Origin: Bacillota bacterium
GTDB taxonomy: Bacteria; Bacillota; Clostridia; Peptostreptococcales; Anaerovoracaceae
DNA: 64,000 nt
NCBI GenBank assembly: GCA_017557505.1
Contig: JAFYYP010000052.1
Coordinates: 1-64,000 of the forward strand
Direction: 5' to 3'
Shown here: positions 37,292 through 46,314 of the stretch, one piece after another
Position numbering within the stretch: position 1 is the first letter of the stretch
How the letters are laid out: each line of letters starts with the position of its first letter
Program-made: the position numbers and the translations under genes
The notes under the pieces: model-generated
Databases searched by the model: none
Told to the model about the DNA's origin: nothing
What the model saw: the letters and a program-made list of their open reading frames with translations, nothing else

Positions 37292-38806
37292 TTACTGTTC
37301 TTCGTCCGCGCTTTCGCCGCCGATCATGTCCTCTTCCTCGTTCCGGAAGATCTCGGAGACCATCTCCGACTGCTTCCGGGCCAGCTCTTCCGTAGACCGG
37401 TTGAACATGCTGGCGATGCACAGGTCTGTCCTCAGGGAGAACATCCACTCCGTCACGAAGCCTTCGTTCCAGCCGTCGTGTTCGCCGACGTCCCCCTCGA
37501 GGCGGTAAACGCAGAGTCCGTAATTGTCCAGCACCGGCGTCAGCATGCGCTGCGCGGTCTCCTTCTTCAGCAGGCCGCCTTCGCGATAGCTCTTCGAAAG
37601 GGCGAGGCCGATCTTCACGAGTTCCGACGGCGTCGTCCAAAGACCTGCCGCGGCGTGCTCGGGATAATAGTGATAGCCGCGGGCGGGATCTTCTTTTTCA
37701 CCCAGCCGACCGCCGAACGCGGCGTTGGCTGCCAGCTTTTCGTCCAGAGGCTGGAAATACCCGGAGCGCTTCAGGTCCAGGGGCTCCGCGACTTCCTTTT
37801 GGAAAGCTTCGCGCAGGGTCAGGCCAGTGATGCGCGTAAAGGCCAGCTCGGCCAGGGTGATGCCGCCGCCGGAATACATGCATTGCTTGCCGTAGGGGCG
37901 TATCCTGCGCAGCCTGGGCGTGATGCCCTTGCCGTCCAGCACGTCCTCCAGCGAGAGAAGCGCGTGGTCCGCGCGGTATCCCGGAAAACCGTGCAGGTTG
38001 AAGCCCGCCGTATGGGACAGCAGCGCGGAGAAGGTCATCGGAATCTTCGCATATTCCGGAACGACCCCCGAAATGTCCGCGTCCAGATCGATGACCCCCT
38101 TGTCCACGTAACGCAGGAGGGTCAGCGCGAACACGGGTTTGCTCACGGACCCCGCCTGGAACAGCATGTCCGGATTGACCGGAAAATCCTGTCCGAACCG
38201 GCCGCTGCCGGCGCAGTAAGCATCCAGTTCTTCTCCGTCGGAGATCGCTATGCTGATGCCGTAGCCGCCTTTCTCCTTGATCCGCATGCGTTCCTTTACG
38301 TTTACGTCGAACCACTCGACCGTATTCTGCTCCTTTTTCGACTTCTTCGTCAGCCATAATCTCATGACGACTTCGCCGTCGTCATAAGCGCCGATCTCCC
38401 GGAAGCCTGCTTTATGGTACAGGTGTATGCCGCATTCGTTATCCGGCTCGGTCGAGAGCAGCAGCCGTTCCGCGCCGAGATCCTTGAAATAGCGGATGAT
38501 CTCCGCGAGCGCCGCCTGACCGTAGCCCTTGCCCTGTTCGTTCTTGTCGATCATGAAGCGCCAGAGATAGTATCTGTCGTCCTCATCTTCCTCTTCCATA
38601 TCCACGGCGAACATGCAGAATCCGACGAGCTTATCGTCTGCGTAGATCGCGAACGGACGCGCCACGCCGGGCTGCTCCGTGTTGGCCTCTTTCGCCTCTA
38701 TCAGGGAAGACTTGTTGGATGCGACGAACGGCTGATCTTCGCGCACGGAAAGGGCCAGGACGGCTTTCTTATTCTTCTTATTGATAGGTTCCAGTTTTAT
38801 ACTCAT
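37292..38806 (-). CDS. GNAT acetyltransferase - serine hydrolase fusion
   Basis: A 504-residue two-domain protein. Residues 1-155 are a GNAT domain (FMIDKNEQGKGYGQAAL is the acetyl-CoA loop; IHLYHKAGF the last helix). Residues about 170-490 are a class C beta-lactamase-fold hydrolase with SVSK (in QAGSVSKPV), the tyrosine motif YSGG (CMYSGGGI) and HDGWNEG in place of KTG. There is no signal peptide, so it is probably cytoplasmic. Activity is unknown; it could modify or hydrolyse an amide- or ester-containing compound. The start at 38806 (MSIKLEP) follows GGAGA; the ATG at 38821 is part of that site. A 194-nt structured leader precedes it. Confidence 0.85.
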   Translation of the reverse strand: MSIKLEPINKKNKKAVLALSVREDQPFVASNKSSLIEAKEANTEQPGVARPFAIYADDKLVGFCMFAVDMEEEDEDDRYYLWRFMIDKNEQGKGYGQAALAEIIRYFKDLGAERLLLSTEPDNECGIHLYHKAGFREIGAYDDGEVVMRLWLTKKSKKEQNTVEWFDVNVKERMRIKEKGGYGISIAISDGEELDAYCAGSGRFGQDFPVNPDMLFQAGSVSKPVFALTLLRYVDKGVIDLDADISGVVPEYAKIPMTFSALLSHTAGFNLHGFPGYRADHALLSLEDVLDGKGITPRLRRIRPYGKQCMYSGGGITLAELAFTRITGLTLREAFQKEVAEPLDLKRSGYFQPLDEKLAANAAFGGRLGEKEDPARGYHYYPEHAAAGLWTTPSELVKIGLALSKSYREGGLLKKETAQRMLTPVLDNYGLCVYRLEGDVGEHDGWNEGFVTEWMFSLRTDLCIASMFNRSTEELARKQSEMVSEIFRNEEEDMIGGESADEEQ

Positions 38807-38814
38807 TTGTGTTT

Positions 38815-38869
38815 TCTCCATAAAAATGCCGCAGAACAGCAGCTCCCGAAAGCAGCTGCGTCCTGCGGC
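38815..38869 (-). promoter_or_regulatory. terminator-like hairpin before the fusion gene (attenuator candidate)
   Basis: On the minus strand GCCGCAG (38869-38863) pairs with CTGCGGC (38834-38828), with an inner stem GCAGCT/AGCTGC, followed by ATTTTT and then directly by the ribosome site GGAGA. A Rho-independent terminator in this place would block the gene unless the leader refolds. Confidence 0.6.
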
Positions 38870-38991: not shown

Positions 38992-39005
38992 AGTCTCCGA
39001 AACCT

Positions 39006-39034
39006 ATGATAACGGATTACACGCCCGAAATCAA
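39006..39034 (-). promoter_or_regulatory. promoter of the fusion-gene leader
   Basis: TTGATT (39034-39029) and TATCAT (39011-39006) on the minus strand are 17 bp apart. Transcription would start near 39000, giving a leader of about 194 nt. Confidence 0.65.
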
Positions 39035-39038
39035 TGTC

Positions 39039-39365
39039 TTATCTTCTGACCGCTTTCGGTTCCGTCTGCTGCGGCGCGAGGAACATCTGCTCCAGCAGCT
39101 TCCTGCCGGTCTCCGTCTTGAAGATCTTCTGAGCGACGCTCTCGACCGCCGATCTCGGTTCATCCTCTTCGAAGAGGTTCACCAGGAAGTCAGCCTCGAC
39201 GAGGATCTGATAATCGATCCCGTCGATATCCGTATACGTGTGGTGGTGCGAGACCACATAGGCCGCCCGTTCGATCACCGCGGGTTCGAACCCCAGTGAC
39301 CCGAGCATCTTCCGCACGAGCGGGTCGCTCACCTTCTCCTGGAACTTGCCGCTGCCGCTGCACGA
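39039..39365 (-). pseudogene. HD-domain protein, C-terminal remnant
   Basis: About 105 residues resemble the C-terminal part of HD-type phosphohydrolases: SDPLVRKMLGSLGFEPAVIERAAYVVSHHH, then TDIDGIDYQILVEADFLVNL and the IFKTETGRKLLEQMF end. The N-terminal half with the HD metal site is absent. Homology stops near 39365, where a fragment of another gene begins on the opposite strand. No start codon or ribosome site suits it. Confidence 0.75.
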
Positions 39366-39369
39366 CATC

Positions 39370-39459
39370 ATGTCGCCGGCAGAGAAGCGCTTCGTCGAGG
39401 TGGCGCAGGAAGTGGTCACCGAAATGATCGAAGACGGCATCGTGGAGCCGTCCCTGTGA
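39370..39459 (+). pseudogene. LysR regulator, C-terminal remnant
   Basis: Thirty codons (MSPAEKRFVEVAQEVVTEMI, ending VEPSL) are nearly the same as the C-terminus of the intact LysR protein at 41745-42650 (LSPAERKFVEVAQEVVAELI, ending VDPPRI). Everything before is missing. It abuts the HD-domain remnant, so a deletion fused two genes here. The promoter of the amidohydrolase gene (TGATACAAT, about 39457-39465) lies at its end. Confidence 0.8.
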
Positions 39460-39503
39460 TACAATAGAAACACAACCATTCGAAAAATAAAGGAGAACAG
39501 CAT

Positions 39504-41129
39504 ATGGACAATATGGACAGAATTTTCTATAACGGGCAGATCTACACGGTCGACCCCCAGTATCCCGAAGTCTCCGCAGTCGCGGTCAAGAACGGCATCG
39601 TCATGGCCGTCGGGAGCGACGAAGAAGTGAAGGCGATGGCAGGTCCCGCGACCGAGATGGTCGACCTGAAAGGCGCTTTCATGTGCCCCGGCTTCATCGA
39701 CAGCCACATGCACCTGCTCCTGCTTTCCAACAAGCTGCGCCGCACCGACATCGGAGGCGCGAAGACCTTTAAAGAATGCATGGACATCATGGCGAAGGCA
39801 GCCGAAGAGAAGAAAGGCACCAACGCCTGGGCCATGGGCATCGGTTTCAACCAGGACGACTGGACGGACTGCAACGACGTGCCCACGCGTCTCGATCTCG
39901 ACAAGGCCTGCGGCGACGTGCCCGCCTACATCGAGCGCGCCTGCGGCCACATCGCCACGCTCAACACCAAGGCCATGGAGCTCATGGGCATGATGAACGA
40001 AAAGGAAGGCGAATCCCCGTACAAGCTGCGCTACTTCGAAGACGGCACCCCGAACGGCGTGCTGTGCGAAGACACGGTGCGTCTCGTCGAACAGTACTTC
40101 CCCGTACCGACCGTGCCGGAAATGAAGGAGCTCATCCTGACCGGCGCCCGCTACATCGCGGCGAAGGGCCTGGTGGGGGTTCACTCTGACGACCTCAACT
40201 TGGTCGTGCCCGTCAAGGACATGCCCGTCATCCTGCAGGCGTACAAAGAACTTTCCGAGGCGGACGAGCTGCCCATCCGCGTGCACCAGCAGTGCCGCAT
40301 GCTCAACCTGCCGATGATCGAAAAGTTCTGCAGCGAATACAAGGTGCGCACGAAGTGGGGCAAAAACTTCACGATCGGCGACATCAAGATCATGGGTGAC
40401 GGATCGCTGGGCGCCCACACGGCCGTGCTGAGAGGCGAATATAAGAACGCTCCGGAAGATCACGGCATTCCTCTCCACGACGACGAGGAACTGTACGCGA
40501 TGTTCCGGGTCGCGCACGAGGCGGGCTATCCCATCGTGGTCCACGTCATCGGCGACGGCGCGTTCGACCAGGTCGTGAACGGCTACGAACTCGTGCAGAA
40601 CGAGAACCCGAAGGCCAACATGCGCCACGGCATCATCCACTGCCAGATCATGGACGAGGCCCAGCAGGACCGTTTCGTCAAGCTCAACCTGCTCGCCTAC
40701 GCGCAGCCCGTATTCGTCCGCTACGACTCCTCGATTGTGGACGACTGCGTCGGGAGCGAGCTCGCGAAGACCTCGTACAACTGGCGCCGCTTCCTCGACA
40801 TGGGCGTGCACACGAGCGGCGGTTCCGACTGCCCGGTCGAAGACTGCGACGTATTGGAGAACCTCTACTACGCCGTCACCCGCATGGGAATGAACGGCAA
40901 GCCCTGGTACCCCGAGAACGGCGTGACCATGGAAGAAGCCCTGAGGATGTTCACGATCGAAGGCGCGTATTCCGCATTCGAAGAAGCCGAGAGAGGTTCG
41001 ATCACGATCGGTAAGTACGCGGACTTCACCGTGCTCGACAAGAACATCATGAAGAACCCGCCCGAAGAACTGCTGAACACGAAGGTGCTGATGACTATTG
41101 TGAACGGCAAGACGGTGTACGAAGGATAG
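39504..41129 (+). CDS. YtcJ-type amidohydrolase (amidohydrolase family 3)
   Basis: A 541-residue metal-dependent hydrolase. The first metal site HMHLLLL is in PGFIDSHMHLLLLS. Others are the KIMGDGSLGAHTA segment, the HVIGDGA histidine, the HGIIHCQ histidine and the SGGSDCPVE aspartate, all as in the YtcJ group. C-terminal beta-sandwich strands complete the fold (IGKYADFTVLDKNI). The substrate is unknown; related enzymes cleave N-acyl or formyl amides. AAAGGAG precedes the start. Confidence 0.9.
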   Translation: MDNMDRIFYNGQIYTVDPQYPEVSAVAVKNGIVMAVGSDEEVKAMAGPATEMVDLKGAFMCPGFIDSHMHLLLLSNKLRRTDIGGAKTFKECMDIMAKAAEEKKGTNAWAMGIGFNQDDWTDCNDVPTRLDLDKACGDVPAYIERACGHIATLNTKAMELMGMMNEKEGESPYKLRYFEDGTPNGVLCEDTVRLVEQYFPVPTVPEMKELILTGARYIAAKGLVGVHSDDLNLVVPVKDMPVILQAYKELSEADELPIRVHQQCRMLNLPMIEKFCSEYKVRTKWGKNFTIGDIKIMGDGSLGAHTAVLRGEYKNAPEDHGIPLHDDEELYAMFRVAHEAGYPIVVHVIGDGAFDQVVNGYELVQNENPKANMRHGIIHCQIMDEAQQDRFVKLNLLAYAQPVFVRYDSSIVDDCVGSELAKTSYNWRRFLDMGVHTSGGSDCPVEDCDVLENLYYAVTRMGMNGKPWYPENGVTMEEALRMFTIEGAYSAFEEAERGSITIGKYADFTVLDKNIMKNPPEELLNTKVLMTIVNGKTVYEG

Positions 41130-41149
41130 GCTCTGACGGCAAAACAACA

Positions 41150-41180
41150 GAGGGGTCCCCGTAAGGGGGGCTCCTTTTTA
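41150..41180 (+). terminator. terminator of the amidohydrolase gene
   Basis: AGGGGTCCCC pairs with the downstream GGGG-GCTCCT (two G-T pairs) around GTAA, followed by TTTTTATT. Confidence 0.75.
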
Positions 41181-41183
41181 TTG

Positions 41184-41301
41184 TGACAATTTGTCATATT
41201 AAATATTAATTTCTGTCGCTTTACTTAACAGTGAGGTAGTTGTATATTGTACTTGCAAGGGGATGTTAAAGAAATAACAAGCCCGTTAAAAGAAAAACGA
41301 A
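41184..41301 (+). promoter_or_regulatory. promoter and conserved leader of module copy 1
   Basis: A palindrome TGACAA-T-TTGTCA (41184-41196) lies 30 bp before the -35 box TTTACT (41220-41225); the -10 is TATATT (41243-41248) after 17 bp. The block TCTGTCGCTTTACTTAAC is shared with copy 2. The leader 41255-41301 is about 80 percent identical to 42742-42787 and includes GTTAAAGAAATAAC, a possible small hairpin. Confidence 0.75.
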
Positions 41302-41340
41302 TGTTGAAAATACAAACATCTCGAAAGGAAGGAAACTAAA

Positions 41341-41508
41341 ATGAAGAAGAACATCTTAACCTCTCTCGTATTCGTACTCGCACTCGCACTCATCGTTATG
41401 GCGATTGGGCTCAACCCCACGACTGCATCCTCGTTCACTCCTGTCATGATGATCCTGATGGCCGCTTACTGCTTCGGTCAGTACAGATACGGCAAGAACT
41501 ACCGCTAA
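41341..41508 (+). CDS. micropeptide A1 (55 aa, membrane)
   Basis: A 55-residue protein with two hydrophobic stretches (ILTSLVFVLALALIVMAIGL and FTPVMMILMAAYCF) and the basic C-terminus GQYRYGKNYR. The same C-terminal ten residues end peptide A2 at 42831-42998. It is probably a small inner-membrane protein with two helices. GGAAGG lies upstream of the ATG. Conservation of promoter, leader and C-terminus between two diverged copies argues that it is a real gene. I do not recognise the family. Confidence 0.8.
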   Translation: MKKNILTSLVFVLALALIVMAIGLNPTTASSFTPVMMILMAAYCFGQYRYGKNYR

Positions 41509-41540
41509 TCACGACCCAGGCTGCTCACCGGAGGTTTTCC

Positions 41541-41669
41541 ATGAACACGTTAAAGCTTAGGATCTGGGCCCTGCTGATGCTTATCTGCTGCACTCTCCTC
41601 TACAGCTCTATCATGCCGAACCTGCCGGTGGTAAGCAAAGCAGTCCCGGAACTGACAATGATACTATAA
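41541..41669 (+). CDS. micropeptide B1 (42 aa, membrane)
   Basis: A 42-residue protein, MNTLKLRIWALLMLICCTLL then YSSIMPNLP and a short tail. One membrane helix with a basic N-terminus is predicted. It shares the pattern R-(I/L)-W-A-x2-ML-I-x-C-x3-Y-(S/T)-S-x-M-x2-LP with B2. CCGGAGG lies six bases before the ATG. The gene follows A1 by 32 bp and is followed by a strong terminator, so A1 and B1 form an operon. Confidence 0.75.
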   Translation: MNTLKLRIWALLMLICCTLLYSSIMPNLPVVSKAVPELTMIL

Positions 41670-41691
41670 ACCCAAGATCATTCTCCATAGA

Positions 41692-41724
41692 AAAAAGGAG
41701 TTCCGCAAGGAGCTCCTTTTTCTA
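41692..41724 (+). terminator. terminator of module copy 1
   Basis: AAAAAGGAGTTCC and GGAGCTCCTTTTT form a 13-bp stem with loop GCAA and a T tail. The copy 2 terminator has a similar GGA-CTCC core. Confidence 0.88.
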
Positions 41725-41744
41725 CGTTTTACGAACTTGCCGTC

Positions 41745-42650
41745 CTAGATGCGCGGCGGGTCTACAATGCCGTCTTCGATCAGTTCGGCAACGACTTCCT
41801 GCGCCACTTCTACAAATTTGCGTTCCGCCGGAGAAAGCTTGATCCTATCGTTCAGCAACAGGATGCAGTCCCGTTTGCAGGGAGGACGGAACGGGATGCC
41901 GACCACGCCTTCCGAAGAAAACGCCACGTGCATACCCGCCACGACGGATACGCCCAACCCTTCCTTTACCATGGCCAGGATCGTTTGCTCATCGTGCGAC
42001 ACCAGGATGGACTTCTTTTCCAAAGGCGAACCTTCCACCAGGCGCTGTACATCCAGGTCATAATCCAACTTCAGGCCAACGTATGGATATTGGGCAAGTT
42101 CCTCCAGGGTCACGGAATCTTTTTCTGCCAATGGATGGCCCTCCGGTACGACCGCCAGGATATCGTCGGTGCACAGGGGGATGCCCGGTTCCTCGGTGGA
42201 TGCGCGCGTTAAAAATGCCATGGAAACACGTCCGTCCACAATAGCTTGGCGAAGGCTGGTGCCGCCGGTGTCTTCCGTCAGTTCCAGTGAGATCTGCGGA
42301 TAACGTTCTTTAAACCGTCTGACGACGTCCGGCACCAGGTAGCGGGCGAAGGAACCGCCGGAGGCAAACAGCACGTGACCGACAGTTATGCCCTGCAGTT
42401 CCGCAACACTCTGTTCCATGCGGTCTGCCGCAGCGGCCAGCTCGCGGATCGGTTCGATCAGGTCTTCGCCAGCAGGCGTCAGCGAAACGCCGGAACGGGT
42501 GCGGCGCAGCAAAACGACGCCGAGGTCTTCTTCTAAGGCGTTCATCATGTGCGTGACCCCGGAAGGCGTGTACCCCAGCTCCTCCGCGGCTGCGGTAAAG
42601 CTGCCGGTATCGACAGCGCGCAGCAGTACTTTGCATTTCTCAGTATCCAT
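41745..42650 (-). CDS. LysR-family transcriptional regulator of the A-B module
   Basis: A 301-residue LysR protein with the N-terminal helix-turn-helix FTAAAEELGYTPSGVTHMMNALEEDLGV and an effector domain. It lies between the two A-B copies and diverges from copy 2, so control of one or both is likely. TGTGA-N7-TCACA (42669-42685) in the shared intergenic region and a related palindrome before copy 1 at the same distance from the -35 box are candidate sites. The inducer is unknown. A C-terminal fragment of a close paralogue is at 39370-39459. Confidence 0.88.
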   Translation of the reverse strand: MDTEKCKVLLRAVDTGSFTAAAEELGYTPSGVTHMMNALEEDLGVVLLRRTRSGVSLTPAGEDLIEPIRELAAAADRMEQSVAELQGITVGHVLFASGGSFARYLVPDVVRRFKERYPQISLELTEDTGGTSLRQAIVDGRVSMAFLTRASTEEPGIPLCTDDILAVVPEGHPLAEKDSVTLEELAQYPYVGLKLDYDLDVQRLVEGSPLEKKSILVSHDEQTILAMVKEGLGVSVVAGMHVAFSSEGVVGIPFRPPCKRDCILLLNDRIKLSPAERKFVEVAQEVVAELIEDGIVDPPRI

Positions 42651-42668
42651 ATCTGTATTGTATCATAC

Positions 42669-42787
42669 TGTGACAACTCTTCACAATAACTATTAAATTC
42701 TGTCGTTTTACTTAACGAATGACTTGCGTTATAGTTAAGGTGCAAAGGGAAGTTAAGAAATTAACAAGCCCGATAAAATAATAACGA
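42669..42787 (+). promoter_or_regulatory. promoter and conserved leader of module copy 2
   Basis: TGTGA-N7-TCACA (42669-42685) is centred 30 bp before the -35 box TTTACT (42707-42712), and -10 TATAGT (42730-42735) follows after 17 bp. Spacing and sequence match copy 1. In the leader GTTAA-GAAA-TTAAC forms a small hairpin, then AACAAGCCCG as in copy 1. Confidence 0.75.
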
Positions 42788-42830
42788 ACCCAAAACCTCC
42801 AAGGATTTTAAAGAAAGAAGGAAAACAAAA

Positions 42831-42998
42831 ATGACTAAGAACATCTTCGCAGGAATCATCGCCACCATCGCATGCGTACTGGTCTGGACCGCTTCCAACG
42901 TTCCCGGATCCACCGGCTTCGGCTTCGTCGCAGCTTCCATCGGTCTGATGGCAGCCTACGTCATCGGTCAGTACAGATACGGCAAGAACTACCGCTAA
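42831..42998 (+). CDS. micropeptide A2 (55 aa, membrane)
   Basis: A 55-residue paralogue of A1, beginning MTKNIFAGIIATIACVLVW and ending GQYRYGKNYR. Two hydrophobic segments are separated by a short NVPGSTG turn. Length is exactly that of A1 although the central sequence has diverged, while the C-terminal ten residues are identical, so that motif is probably the functional or interaction part. AGAAGG is the ribosome site. GC-rich and in the codon style of the chromosome. Confidence 0.8.
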   Translation: MTKNIFAGIIATIACVLVWTASNVPGSTGFGFVAASIGLMAAYVIGQYRYGKNYR

Positions 42999-43040
42999 AC
43001 CATTACCGCTTGACCCACCTGCAGGAAAGGAGGAAAGAAC

Positions 43041-43172
43041 ATGTACACAAGAAGGATCCGGCTCTGGGCCATCATGCTGATGCTGATCGCGTGCAGCTTC
43101 GTCTACACGTCGGCCATGTCCAGCCTCCCTGCGGCAGGAACAGGTCTGCCGGCAATGCCCTGGCTGTTATAA
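43041..43172 (+). CDS. micropeptide B2 (43 aa, membrane)
   Basis: A 43-residue paralogue of B1: MYTRRIRLWAIMLMLIACSF then VYTSAMSSLP and a Gly/Pro-rich tail ending PWLL. One membrane helix with an N-terminal basic cluster. AAAGGAGG lies upstream of the ATG. It follows A2 by 42 bp and is followed by a terminator, as in copy 1. Confidence 0.78.
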   Translation: MYTRRIRLWAIMLMLIACSFVYTSAMSSLPAAGTGLPAMPWLL

Positions 43173-43188
43173 AAACAAGACAATGATA

Positions 43189-43223
43189 AAAGAAGGAACT
43201 CCGCGCGGAGTTCCTTCTTTGTT
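43189..43223 (+). terminator. terminator of module copy 2
   Basis: AAAGAAGGAACTCC and GGAGTTCCTTCTTT form a 14-bp perfect stem with loop GCGC and a T-rich tail; it probably also serves the convergent M42 operon. Confidence 0.9.
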
Positions 43224-43240
43224 TTACGCTTTCTATACGC

Positions 43241-44242
43241 TTAGAACTTGTATTCCGCAAACGCCGCGCACAGCTTCGCGCAGGCGTCCATGTCGTCCGC
43301 CGACACAATCTCCTGCGGGCAGTGGCAGAACTTGCAGGGGATGGAGATGCCGCTGGTCAGCACGCCGTCCATGTTCACGTGCATGGGACCGGCGTCCGTA
43401 CCACCTGCGGTCAGGACGTCCATCTGATAGGCGATCTTCTTCTTTTCCGCCAGTTCGACGAGGATCCTGTTCACGGCCGGGCTGCAGATGACGGAGGAAT
43501 CCTTCACCTTGATCGCAGCGCCTTTGCCCGTGGAAGAGCTGCAGCCGTGCGTGCTCTTGGGGATGTCGTCCGCGCCGGTCACGTCGACCGCGATGCCGTA
43601 GTCGGGCGCAACGCCGAACGCTGCGGTCTTGCCGCCGCGCAGGCCGACCTCTTCTTGCGTCGTGAACACGAAGTACAGGTCGTTGACCGCCTTGGCTTTC
43701 TTCAGCAGCTCCATGGTCATCAGCAGCACGCAGCAGCCGCTGCGGTTGTCGGTGTAGCTGGAAATGATGCAGTTGTTCATGGCCATCGCGGAACGGGTAT
43801 CGTACACGCACATGTCGCCGGGGCGCACGTGGGTCATGGCTTCTTCCGCGCTCTTCGCGCCGATGTCGACGTACAGGTCTTCGGGTTTCACCTTGCCCTC
43901 GTCTTCCATCTCGTTGCAGTGGACGACGCCCTTCACGCCGTTCGCGAAGCGCACGGGTGTGCCGACGACTTCCTTCTCAGGGATCCAGCCGATCTTGCCG
44001 ACGCGCAGCTGGCCTTCCTTTTCGATGTGGGTCACCATCATGCCGATGGAATCCATGTGGGCAGCGAACATGATCTTCTTGCCGGGACCCTTCTTGCGGC
44101 AGATCAGGTTGCCCATGACGTCGGTCGTGATCTCGTCGCAGTACGGTTTCGCCATCTTCGCGATGACCGCCGCGATCTCTTCTTCGCAGCCGCTCGGGCC
44201 GAAGGCTGCGTTCATTTTATCTAAAGTCTTTAAAATATCCAT
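43241..44242 (-). CDS. M42-family aminopeptidase (copy 3 of operon)
   Basis: A 333-residue dinuclear-metal peptidase of family M42 (PepA-like/deblocking aminopeptidase). Metal and catalytic motifs: FAAHMDSIGMMV, SYTDNRSGCC, TQEEVGLRGG with the catalytic Glu pair, VDVTGADD and the C-terminal FCHCPQE in place of a histidine motif. It likely trims peptides for fermentation and acts as a cytoplasmic oligomer. It starts directly after the next M42 gene's stop, the third of three tandem paralogues on this strand. Confidence 0.9.
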   Translation of the reverse strand: MDILKTLDKMNAAFGPSGCEEEIAAVIAKMAKPYCDEITTDVMGNLICRKKGPGKKIMFAAHMDSIGMMVTHIEKEGQLRVGKIGWIPEKEVVGTPVRFANGVKGVVHCNEMEDEGKVKPEDLYVDIGAKSAEEAMTHVRPGDMCVYDTRSAMAMNNCIISSYTDNRSGCCVLLMTMELLKKAKAVNDLYFVFTTQEEVGLRGGKTAAFGVAPDYGIAVDVTGADDIPKSTHGCSSSTGKGAAIKVKDSSVICSPAVNRILVELAEKKKIAYQMDVLTAGGTDAGPMHVNMDGVLTSGISIPCKFCHCPQEIVSADDMDACAKLCAAFAEYKF

Positions 44243-45280
44243 TTACTTCACCTTTCCCGCAGCGATTGCGTCGATCAGCAGTTCCGCCAGTTTCAGTCCG
44301 TTCTCCATGTCGTCCTTATCCGCCACGGTGGACGCCGCGTGCAGCATACGCACCGGGGTGGAGATGTTGGCGACCCTCACGGCGGCCCTGCTCCTCTGCA
44401 CGACCGCCGCGTCCGTGCCGCCGGCGATGTAGTTCTTGATCTGCCAGGGGATGCCGGCTTCGTCCGCCGCATTGCGCAGGAAGTCGAACAGCCTGCGGTC
44501 GTAGATCGTGCCGGTATCGACGCAGCCGATGACGCAGCCACCGCCTACGCGGGTCACTTTCTTGGCGTCGTCTACGCCGGGCATGTCCGCGGAGGTCGTT
44601 CCTTCCAGGATGAGCGCGATGTCCGGTTCGACGTTGAACGCCGCCGTCTTGGCTCCGCGCAGGCCGACTTCCTCCTGGACCGTAAACGCGAACGTCACGT
44701 CCATGGGCAGGTCTTTTTCCATGAGTTTAATCATCTGCGCGCAGCCGATGCGGTCGTCGATGGCCTTGGCCTTGATGCGTTTTTTACCTTCGCCGAAACG
44801 CACGAAGTCGGAATCGAACACGACCCAGTCGCCGATTTTCACCTTCTTCTCGGCCTCTTCTTTGTTCTGCGCGCCGATGTCGATATACATCTGCGAGACC
44901 GCGGGGGTCTTCTTTTCTTCTTCCTTGGATACGAGGTGGTAGGCCTTCAGGCCGGTCACGCCGGGCACCTTGTCCGGGCCGATGAGCACGCGCCTGCCGA
45001 GGGCCACTCTCGGGTTGACCCCGCCGACTTCCGCAAAGCGCAGCACGCCGGAATCCTCGATCTTGTTGATGAGGAAGCCGACTTCGTCCATGTGGGCCGC
45101 GATCATCAGCTTCGGGGCATTATGCTTCTTGCCCCTCTTGAAGACGATCAGGTTGCCCATGGTGTCGACGGACATCTCGTCTGCATAGGGGCGGCACTTC
45201 TCCGCGATCAGGCTGCGGACGGGCGCTTCGAAGCCGGAGACGCCGCTGGCCGCCGTCAGTTCTTTCAGGAGTTTCAGCAT
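44243..45280 (-). CDS. M42-family aminopeptidase (copy 2 of operon)
   Basis: A 345-residue M42 peptidase. Motifs: IAAHMDEVGFLI, AIDDRIGCAQ, VQEEVGLRGAKTAA, ALILEGTTSAD and MLHAASTV with the last metal histidine. The start at 45280 follows AAGGAGG by seven bases and overlaps the stop of the upstream M42 gene by seven bases, showing coupling. The longer open frame to 45442 is not needed. Its closest relative in the window is the following gene. Confidence 0.9.
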   Translation of the reverse strand: MLKLLKELTAASGVSGFEAPVRSLIAEKCRPYADEMSVDTMGNLIVFKRGKKHNAPKLMIAAHMDEVGFLINKIEDSGVLRFAEVGGVNPRVALGRRVLIGPDKVPGVTGLKAYHLVSKEEEKKTPAVSQMYIDIGAQNKEEAEKKVKIGDWVVFDSDFVRFGEGKKRIKAKAIDDRIGCAQMIKLMEKDLPMDVTFAFTVQEEVGLRGAKTAAFNVEPDIALILEGTTSADMPGVDDAKKVTRVGGGCVIGCVDTGTIYDRRLFDFLRNAADEAGIPWQIKNYIAGGTDAAVVQRSRAAVRVANISTPVRMLHAASTVADKDDMENGLKLAELLIDAIAAGKVK

Positions 45281-46314
45281 GTGTACACCTCCTTGCAGGG
45301 TTCCGCGACCGCAAGGGCGATCATCTCGCCGAGCGCCTGCACGTCGCGCATGTCGATGACCTCGATGGGCGTGTGCATGTAGCGCATGGGCAGCGACAGC
45401 AGAGACATCTCGAAGCCTCTGCTTGCGATCTGCATGGGCCACGCGTCCGTTGCGGTCGAGCCGGGGTAAGCCGAGGGCTGCACCGGAATGCGGTGCTTTG
45501 CAGCCAGATCGATCAGGTGCTGCGAGATGTGCGGCTGGCAGTTCGCGCCGATCGCGATGGTCGGGCCCTTGCCCAGTTCGACGTCCTTGTTCGTTGGGCC
45601 GCCGTCCGTCGTCTTCGCCTGGCAGACGTCCACGACGATGCAGTAATCCGGGTCAAGGCCGTAGCCTGCCGTGATCGCGCCGTCGGAATGGATCTCTTCG
45701 CCGACCGCACCGAGGATGTACAGGTCGCAGTCGAGCGGTCTGTCCTTCAGGATCTCCATCGCCAGCATGCACGACGCGAAGCAGCTGCGGTCGTCGAGCG
45801 ACGTGCCGCAGTAATAGTATTCGCCGAGGCTGTAGTTGTCCTTGCGGAACGAGATGGGTGTGCCGACGGGTACGAGTTTCTCAGCCTTCTTCTGGCTGCA
45901 GCCGATATCGATGCGCAGGTCTTCGATGGGGATGGTCTTCTCCTTGTCCTCCTCGCTCATGACGTGAGGCGGCAGGGCCGCGACGACGCCGAACAGGGGC
46001 GGGTCGGTCAGGATGGTGAGTTCGCGGTCGGGCAGCATGCGCGGATCGACGCCGCCGACTTTCGTGAACCGCAGAAAACCGTCCTCGATGCCGCTCACGA
46101 GCAGGCCGATCTCGTCGAGATGGGCCGTGATCAGAACTTTCCGGGCATTCGTTTTGCCGCAGCGGCGCACGCCGACGACGTTGCCCTTTTTGTCGATCCA
46201 TGCCTCGTCGCACAGCGGCTTGACGAGTTCGAGGGCAGTCTGGCTCACCGCGCCTTCAAACCCCGTCGGACCGCACGCTGCGCAGAGCGTTTTCATGGTC
46301 TCCTTTAAGTCCAT
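45274..46314 (-). CDS. M42-family aminopeptidase (copy 1 of operon)
   Basis: A 346-residue M42 peptidase, the first of the tandem set. Motifs: ITAHLDEIGLLV, TSLDDRSCFASC, GAVGEEIHSDGA (catalytic Glu pair with EI in place of EV), VVDVCQAKT and RYMHTPIEV carrying the last histidine. It differs most from the other two, so substrate range may differ. A nucleotidyltransferase gene lies 12 bp upstream on the same strand. Confidence 0.9.
   Translation of the reverse strand: MDLKETMKTLCAACGPTGFEGAVSQTALELVKPLCDEAWIDKKGNVVGVRRCGKTNARKVLITAHLDEIGLLVSGIEDGFLRFTKVGGVDPRMLPDRELTILTDPPLFGVVAALPPHVMSEEDKEKTIPIEDLRIDIGCSQKKAEKLVPVGTPISFRKDNYSLGEYYYCGTSLDDRSCFASCMLAMEILKDRPLDCDLYILGAVGEEIHSDGAITAGYGLDPDYCIVVDVCQAKTTDGGPTNKDVELGKGPTIAIGANCQPHISQHLIDLAAKHRIPVQPSAYPGSTATDAWPMQIASRGFEMSLLSLPMRYMHTPIEVIDMRDVQALGEMIALAVAEPCKEVYTC

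Follow-up and report, generated by a model that had tools for sequence, protein, structure and literature searches.

Small predicted membrane protein genes A and B share a palindrome-promoter-leader block in a genus of Clostridia

The stretch of DNA analysed here, a window of 64,000 nucleotides (nt) from a Bacillota bacterium of the Anaerovoracaceae (assembly GCA_017557505.1, contig JAFYYP010000052.1), carries two cassettes in which a palindrome, a promoter and a leader precede genes for two small hydrophobic proteins, A (A1 and A2) and B (B1 and B2), with the gene for a LysR-type regulator between the cassettes. Comparison with related genomes indicates that cassettes of this kind share one regulatory block of palindrome, promoter and leader, and that the A1 and A2 copies are old paralogues in a set spread over three genomic slots. 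By the same comparison, A1, B1, A2 and B2 appear to be genuine genes, and control of the cassettes by LysR appears most likely. The window is part of a draft genome of 2.2 Mb in 56 contigs (87% complete), labelled G000; other G labels denote the genomes compared with it, and a C after the label denotes the contig.

An amidohydrolase gene (39504-41129, + strand) flanks the region on one side and three M42 peptidase genes (43241-46314, − strand) on the other; between them lie cassette 1 (A1-B1), the LysR gene and cassette 2 (A2-B2). An initial annotation of this DNA had described two copies of the order palindrome, promoter, leader, A and B, and every part that it named was found in the sequence, including A proteins of 55 amino acids (aa) in both copies, B proteins of 42 and 43 aa, and a LysR gene between the copies (41745-42650, − strand, 301 aa). 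The cassettes are read on the + strand, and no strand is assigned to the palindromes. In cassette 1, the palindrome TGACAATTTGTCA (41184-41196), a candidate LysR-type site centred at the predicted position −65, is followed by the promoter, TTTACT-N17-TATATT as annotated (41220-41248), the predicted leader (41255-41340, its start inferred from the −10 box) with 16-nt units at 41265-41280 and 41285-41300, the gene for A1 (41341-41508), a predicted two-helix membrane protein, and that for B1 (41541-41669), a predicted single-helix protein. Cassette 2 repeats this order with the palindrome TGACAACTCTTCA (42671-42683, likewise a candidate LysR-type site centred at predicted −65), the promoter TTTACT-N17-TATAGT, also as annotated (42707-42735), the predicted leader (42742-42830, start again taken from the −10 box; units at 42752-42767 and 42772-42787), A2 (42831-42998) and B2 (43041-43172). 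Of the two annotated terminators, the one 3′ of B1 was found by a terminator scan as a GC-rich hairpin with a T run (41692-41721); the one after B2, a GC-rich inverted repeat followed by T residues (43190-43219), is terminator-like by eye and absent from the scan list.

That these are genes at all had been conditional on homologues elsewhere, and such homologues exist in four other members of the genus, where A2 matched seven genes (expect value, E, 5.6e-14 to 5.5e-7) and B was matched at E 1.3e-21 to 3.4e-10. With A2 as query over 149 relatives, E ≤ 1e-6 was reached only in G000, G001, G002, G004 and G005, all of one genus, and 15 other genomes gave E 0.02-0.09. A profile of nine A genes, which match it by construction, scored below 1e-27 in the same five genomes only when run over 349 genomes of the family, and the six B genes found in these 349 genomes come from the same five. 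Matches of the A profile in 8 genomes outside the genus (E 0.002-0.008) and of the B profile in 12 (E 2.4e-4 to 0.0095) were judged to be chance because they were weak and mostly partial, some lying in long frames or containing a stop. On these searches A and B are present in 5 of the 8 genomes of the genus, and the remaining 341 genomes of the family hold no convincing match; the three members without an A or B match, G003, G006 and G007, are drafts that are 75%, 89% and 89% complete. Short exact peptide patterns from A2, an insensitive method, found no confirmed relative in wider genome contigs, and the A profile had no match in viral contigs. The initial annotation knew of no described family, and this view holds: nothing in Pfam or NCBIfam exceeded a curated cut-off for A or B (best for A, NF038216 with 17.8 bits against 33), the best E values in PHROGs and PADLOC were 0.039 and 0.031, no PDB sequence matched at E ≤ 1, and a literature search found the motif GQYRYGKNYR in no paper. 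Small orphan families are common.

The ratio of nonsynonymous to synonymous substitution rates (dN/dS), a comparison proposed with the initial annotation, argues for coding function in close pairs. Nei-Gojobori values were 0.17, 0.20 and 0.08 for three A pairs and 0.26 and 0.10 for two B pairs, and by this measure close pairs of both genes are under purifying selection (0.08-0.26). At larger distance the same does not hold for A, which gives 0.25-1.38, unlike the close pairs. Across all 36 A pairs the range was 0.08-1.38 and across the 14 computable B pairs 0.10-0.76; the neighbouring LysR, amidohydrolase and first M42 genes gave 0.05-0.25. Between G000 and G004, dN was 0.37 for A (A2), 0.05 for B (B2) and 0.07 for M42. 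Judged by these substitution rates, A evolves faster than the neighbouring genes. We do not take this as proven positive selection, because dN was significantly above dS in no pair (lowest such Fisher p 0.106).

The A proteins have two hydrophobic stretches and a conserved end, LMAAYxxGQY...R, and the B proteins have one strong hydrophobic stretch. AlphaFold2 predicted a helical hairpin for A (helices 3-23 and 30-54 in A2; predicted local distance difference test score, pLDDT, 71) and one helix for B (2-27 in B2; pLDDT 70), both with a predicted template modelling score of 0.37; the residue by which B1 is shorter than B2 is missing from inside the predicted helix. Conserved helix faces were not significant (p 0.05 to 0.39). 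Codon usage was scored with a table built on seven G000 genes for ribosomal proteins, which themselves score 0.66-0.79 on it, against a background of 50 window frames (the longest non-overlapping ones, including false frames such as that antisense to the amidohydrolase gene; median 0.495, maximum 0.79). A2 scored 0.795, a value matched by 3.7% of 322 background 55-codon fragments and by none of 5000 amino-acid-matched draws. The seven A genes of the other genomes scored 0.62-0.81, on a table that for them is from another species and with the matched control confined to window genes, so that overall seven of the nine A genes reach the ribosomal range. By this measure most A genes use codons in the manner of abundant proteins. 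Five B genes scored 0.33-0.46; the sixth, in G001, which stands first behind its promoter, scored 0.674, a single case that fits the promoter as a high-expression element.

Eleven upstream regions were compared, of which one is cut by a contig end and ten are complete. All ten complete regions have a dyad, TGA-N7-TCA in nine and TGA-N7-TTA in G007, exactly 23 base pairs (bp) upstream of TTTACT, and a 17-bp promoter spacer; the distance of 30 bp to the −35 box given in the initial annotation was too long. If transcription starts 7 nt past the −10 box, the dyad centre lies at −65, so in ten of ten regions a dyad of the T-N11-A type stands near the usual position of LysR-type sites, the start itself being inferred. 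It is also found at cassettes on contigs other than that of the LysR gene. In the eight genomes of the genus, a palindrome pattern gave eight matches, six of them at cassettes and the other two (G006:C85 and G004:C139) in what reads as coding stretches; no match of this strict pattern, which misses 4 of the 10 known sites, lay before a transporter gene. The promoter pattern CGTTTTACT-N16-20-TATANT gave nine matches, all at cassettes, and the leader pattern eight, seven at cassettes; reversed-pattern controls of all three gave none. A promoter-plus-leader model run over 99 genomes gave 11 matches with E ≤ 5.7e-15, every one at a cassette, and a next best match at 1.8e-4. Since patterns and model were built from the cassettes themselves, their recovery is expected, and the informative part is that hardly any other site was found. 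Some known cassettes escape each of the strict patterns, which leaves room for further targets whose sites have diverged.

Ten cassettes have a recognisable A or B gene, and they qualify the view of A and B as a pair: five have both, four have A alone and one has B alone. In slot 1, A stands alone (G001:C127, G002:C65 and G005:C4) beside a pseudouridine synthase-like gene, which we take to be of the RsuA/RluB type. Slot 2 runs from the amidohydrolase gene or a contig end to the 3′ end of the LysR gene and holds A and B in cassette 1 of G000, G002:C6 and G005:C7, and A alone in G001:C83. Slot 3, from the start of LysR to the M42 genes, holds A and B in cassette 2 of G000 and in G004, and B alone in G001:C83. 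A tree of the nine A genes (upstream plus coding DNA) has a two-sided split with support of 1.000 (FastTree) and 100 (ultrafast bootstrap). One side, within which branching is poorly supported, holds A1, the two G001 genes, G002:C65 and G005:C4; the other holds A2, G004, G002:C6 and G005:C7. Because A1 and A2 fall on opposite sides of this fully supported split, a recent local duplication, as implied by the initial description of a duplicated module, is rejected. The A1-B1 arrangement seems instead to be recombinant. The C-terminus common to A1 and A2 is present as annotated, but it is in part DNA identity, since the 3′ ends share a run of 35 identical nt that includes the stop codon. A1 alone on its side of the tree has a B gene behind it and shares this end with A2, whereas the other four genes there have no B; A1 therefore looks chimeric on sequence grounds, presumably through recombination between copies. 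The two A genes of G001 are 94% identical, which suggests exchange or recent copying.

In G007 the interval between amidohydrolase and LysR genes contains the same regulatory block (E 1.1e-15) before a 59-aa frame. The block was first noticed by aligning the region, and its high score is partly built in because G007 sat in the model alignment. The 59-aa protein has two hydrophobic stretches; it was missed by the A profile, a profile comparison showed no similarity to A, and the codon score of its gene is not biased (0.443). Judged by slot and regulatory block, the gene is likely an orthologue or a replacement of A.

The initial annotation proposed that LysR controls the two genes. The LysR product matches PF00126 (HTH_1, N-terminal) with 68.0 bits (cut-off 26.6) and PF03466 (LysR substrate-binding domain, C-terminal) with 110.3 bits (cut-off 28), an orthologue is present in all six genomes with a cassette, and its DNA-binding region is nearly invariant among the six aligned sequences. 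The site near −65 is fixed, the adjacent LysR has this nearly invariant DNA-binding region and the motif set is dedicated to the cassettes, which together make control by LysR the most likely reading; the half-site pair at the usual position in every complete region agrees with the initial proposal, and binding by this particular LysR is what we infer. The position of the site makes activation likelier than repression.

Taken as a whole, each cassette would be a transcription unit under LysR-type control. LysR itself, or a protein closely related to it, would bind TGA-N7-T(C/T)A at about −65 and, when bound, switch on the strong TTTACT-N17-TATanT promoter, giving an mRNA that starts with a short repeated leader and encodes A, a helical hairpin of 55 aa that is abundant and ends in LMAAYxxGQY...R; some cassettes would add B, a less expressed single-helix protein of 42-43 aa. 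A, aided by B, would most likely sit in the cytoplasmic membrane and adjust a membrane complex, a transporter or membrane enzyme, under the condition sensed by LysR. We consider LysR-activated abundant A with a weaker partner B tuning a membrane complex to be the best explanation of the whole, though a tentative one. Several observations weigh against it. The AlphaFold2 confidence for A and B is modest, and the codon usage of A1 (0.562, p 0.14), B1 (p 0.71) and B2 (p 0.33) is at background level. The cassettes encode no partner complex. At the sites beside LysR in G002:C6 and G005:C7 the dyad is reduced to the outer TGA/TCA, and because the genomes carry many LysR-type genes, the adjacent LysR need not be the binder. 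G003 (75% complete) keeps LysR and has no cassette 3′ of it, the other side of the gene being a contig end; a cassette was not found elsewhere in this draft either. It is conceivable, and we suggest it with reserve, that LysR here serves a self-dedicated circuit: its regulon would be only its own few cassettes of a fast-evolving family of abundant two-helix membrane proteins with a leader of 20-nt period, in which the block outlasts the protein sequence and parts are exchanged between three slots.

The alternative that fares best places the main switch in the leader, with another regulator acting on its repeats as DNA operators or as RNA and LysR merely nearby; we consider it unlikely. Ten distinct leaders were tested, G002:C6 and G005:C7 sharing one leader sequence. 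The first 16-nt unit recurs downstream with 11-14 of 16 nt identical, at a distance of 20 nt in nine of them and of 18 nt in the leader of the G001 B gene, and G007 has a third unit at 40 nt. Simple letter shuffles gave p < 0.02 for the repeat in nine leaders and 0.063 in G007, in sequences that are related, and because the leaders are related the repeats are not independent evidence for a leader switch. Folding of eight leaders gave a hairpin in the first unit, with z −2.2 to −3.0 in six of them (−0.46 and −1.05 in the other two). In the stated register 83.8% of cells pair; slid registers reach 46.2% at most. As a conserved structure this hairpin is weak: 134 to 278 of 500 shuffles reach the observed value and no measure beats them, RNAalifold kept four pairs, none with a two-sided change, and leader covariation was not above shuffles. 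None of six Rfam matches in 39000-44500 passed the gathering score. A leader-like array with units 24 and 20 nt apart occurs at G007:C157:5574-5638 (L163, L215), between two diverging genes that read from their sequences as M20-like peptidase and CoA-transferase-like. It would suit a leader switch, but its matches are weak (E 0.0045 and 0.16); further leader-model matches, in G002:C23 and G007:C101, lie in what reads as coding stretches. A switch in the leader leaves the fixed palindrome near −65 unexplained.

It is improbable that A or B is a secreted peptide, such as a leaderless bacteriocin or signal peptide, or that B is a tiny lipoprotein. The peptides are small, multi-copy and fast-evolving, and five of the six B proteins fit the lipobox rule (A, G or S before the cysteine and K or R near the start) at an invariant Cys18, but the lipobox is broken in B1, B is conserved beyond the possible cleavage site (Y22, S24, M26 and P30), and no peptide family in Pfam or NCBIfam matched. 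More improbable still is that A is the toxin-like membrane peptide of a type I toxin-antitoxin pair repressed by antisense RNA: type I toxins are small and hydrophobic with a charged end and a structured leader, all of which A shares (several copies, positively charged end, net +3 to +5, hairpin-prone leader), but the codon usage of abundant proteins in seven of nine A genes, their retention across the genus in fixed slots, and minus-strand promoter-scan matches that within 41100-43300 are only 42686-42657 and 41687-41658, neither inside A, speak against it.

The surroundings offer some further observations. Window positions 39020-39460, probably the joint of a rearrangement, hold two remnants: an HD-domain gene (− strand) of which the 3′ part is left, and beside it a fragment (+ strand) that matches LysR at the 3′ end of its gene. 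In G001, G002 and G005 the HD-domain gene lies near the A-only cassette. A row similar to the three M42 genes lies directly upstream of LysR in G007, where the comparison covered the first gene. In G003:C188 (L050) the gene next to the LysR orthologue on its cassette-free 3′ side is another, convergent LysR-type gene. At 37292-38821 lies a 509-aa frame in which a GNAT acetyltransferase domain is fused to one that belongs to the Pfam Beta-lactamase (serine hydrolase) family.

The closest working precedent that we found is WatR, a LysR-type regulator of Methylomonas sp. DH-1 whose T-N11-A palindromes precede several genes that lacked annotation and encode proteins of about 50 aa; of these, WatS1-WatS5, WatS1-4 are paralogous with a predicted transmembrane domain, and overexpressed WatS1 raised acetate tolerance only when the WatABO pump was present (PMC10355033). 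The likeness, which is one of description, lies in LysR-type sites before several paralogous genes for membrane proteins of about 50 aa, represented here by the sites and the hydrophobic stretches. WatS has one transmembrane domain where A probably has two, WatR has other targets too, including pump genes, and the available text of that report mentions no B-like partner or repeated leader. As described there, WatR sites at the small genes overlap the −35 box, unlike those of the cassettes, which again counts against the mechanism proposed above. By this analogy A and B would act as modulators. AcrZ is a small modulator of a membrane transporter (PMC10355033) and likewise a small hydrophobic protein; A1, alone of the nine A genes, gives an AcrZ score (PF10766), but with 14.1 bits it stays below the cut-off of 26.2, and A has two predicted helices.

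New here are the old paralogues in three slots, the fixed palindrome-promoter-leader block, the codon bias of A, and the G007 block before an unrelated-looking protein. With the cassettes, a genus of Clostridia gains a family of conserved small proteins that has no curated relative. The G007 gene was found through its regulatory block and slot where protein search fails, and this offers a route to such genes. Should A and B tune a membrane complex, they would join WatR/WatS as an example of several paralogous small membrane proteins placed under a LysR-type regulator, and the circuit here would be one of a two-protein design, A with B.

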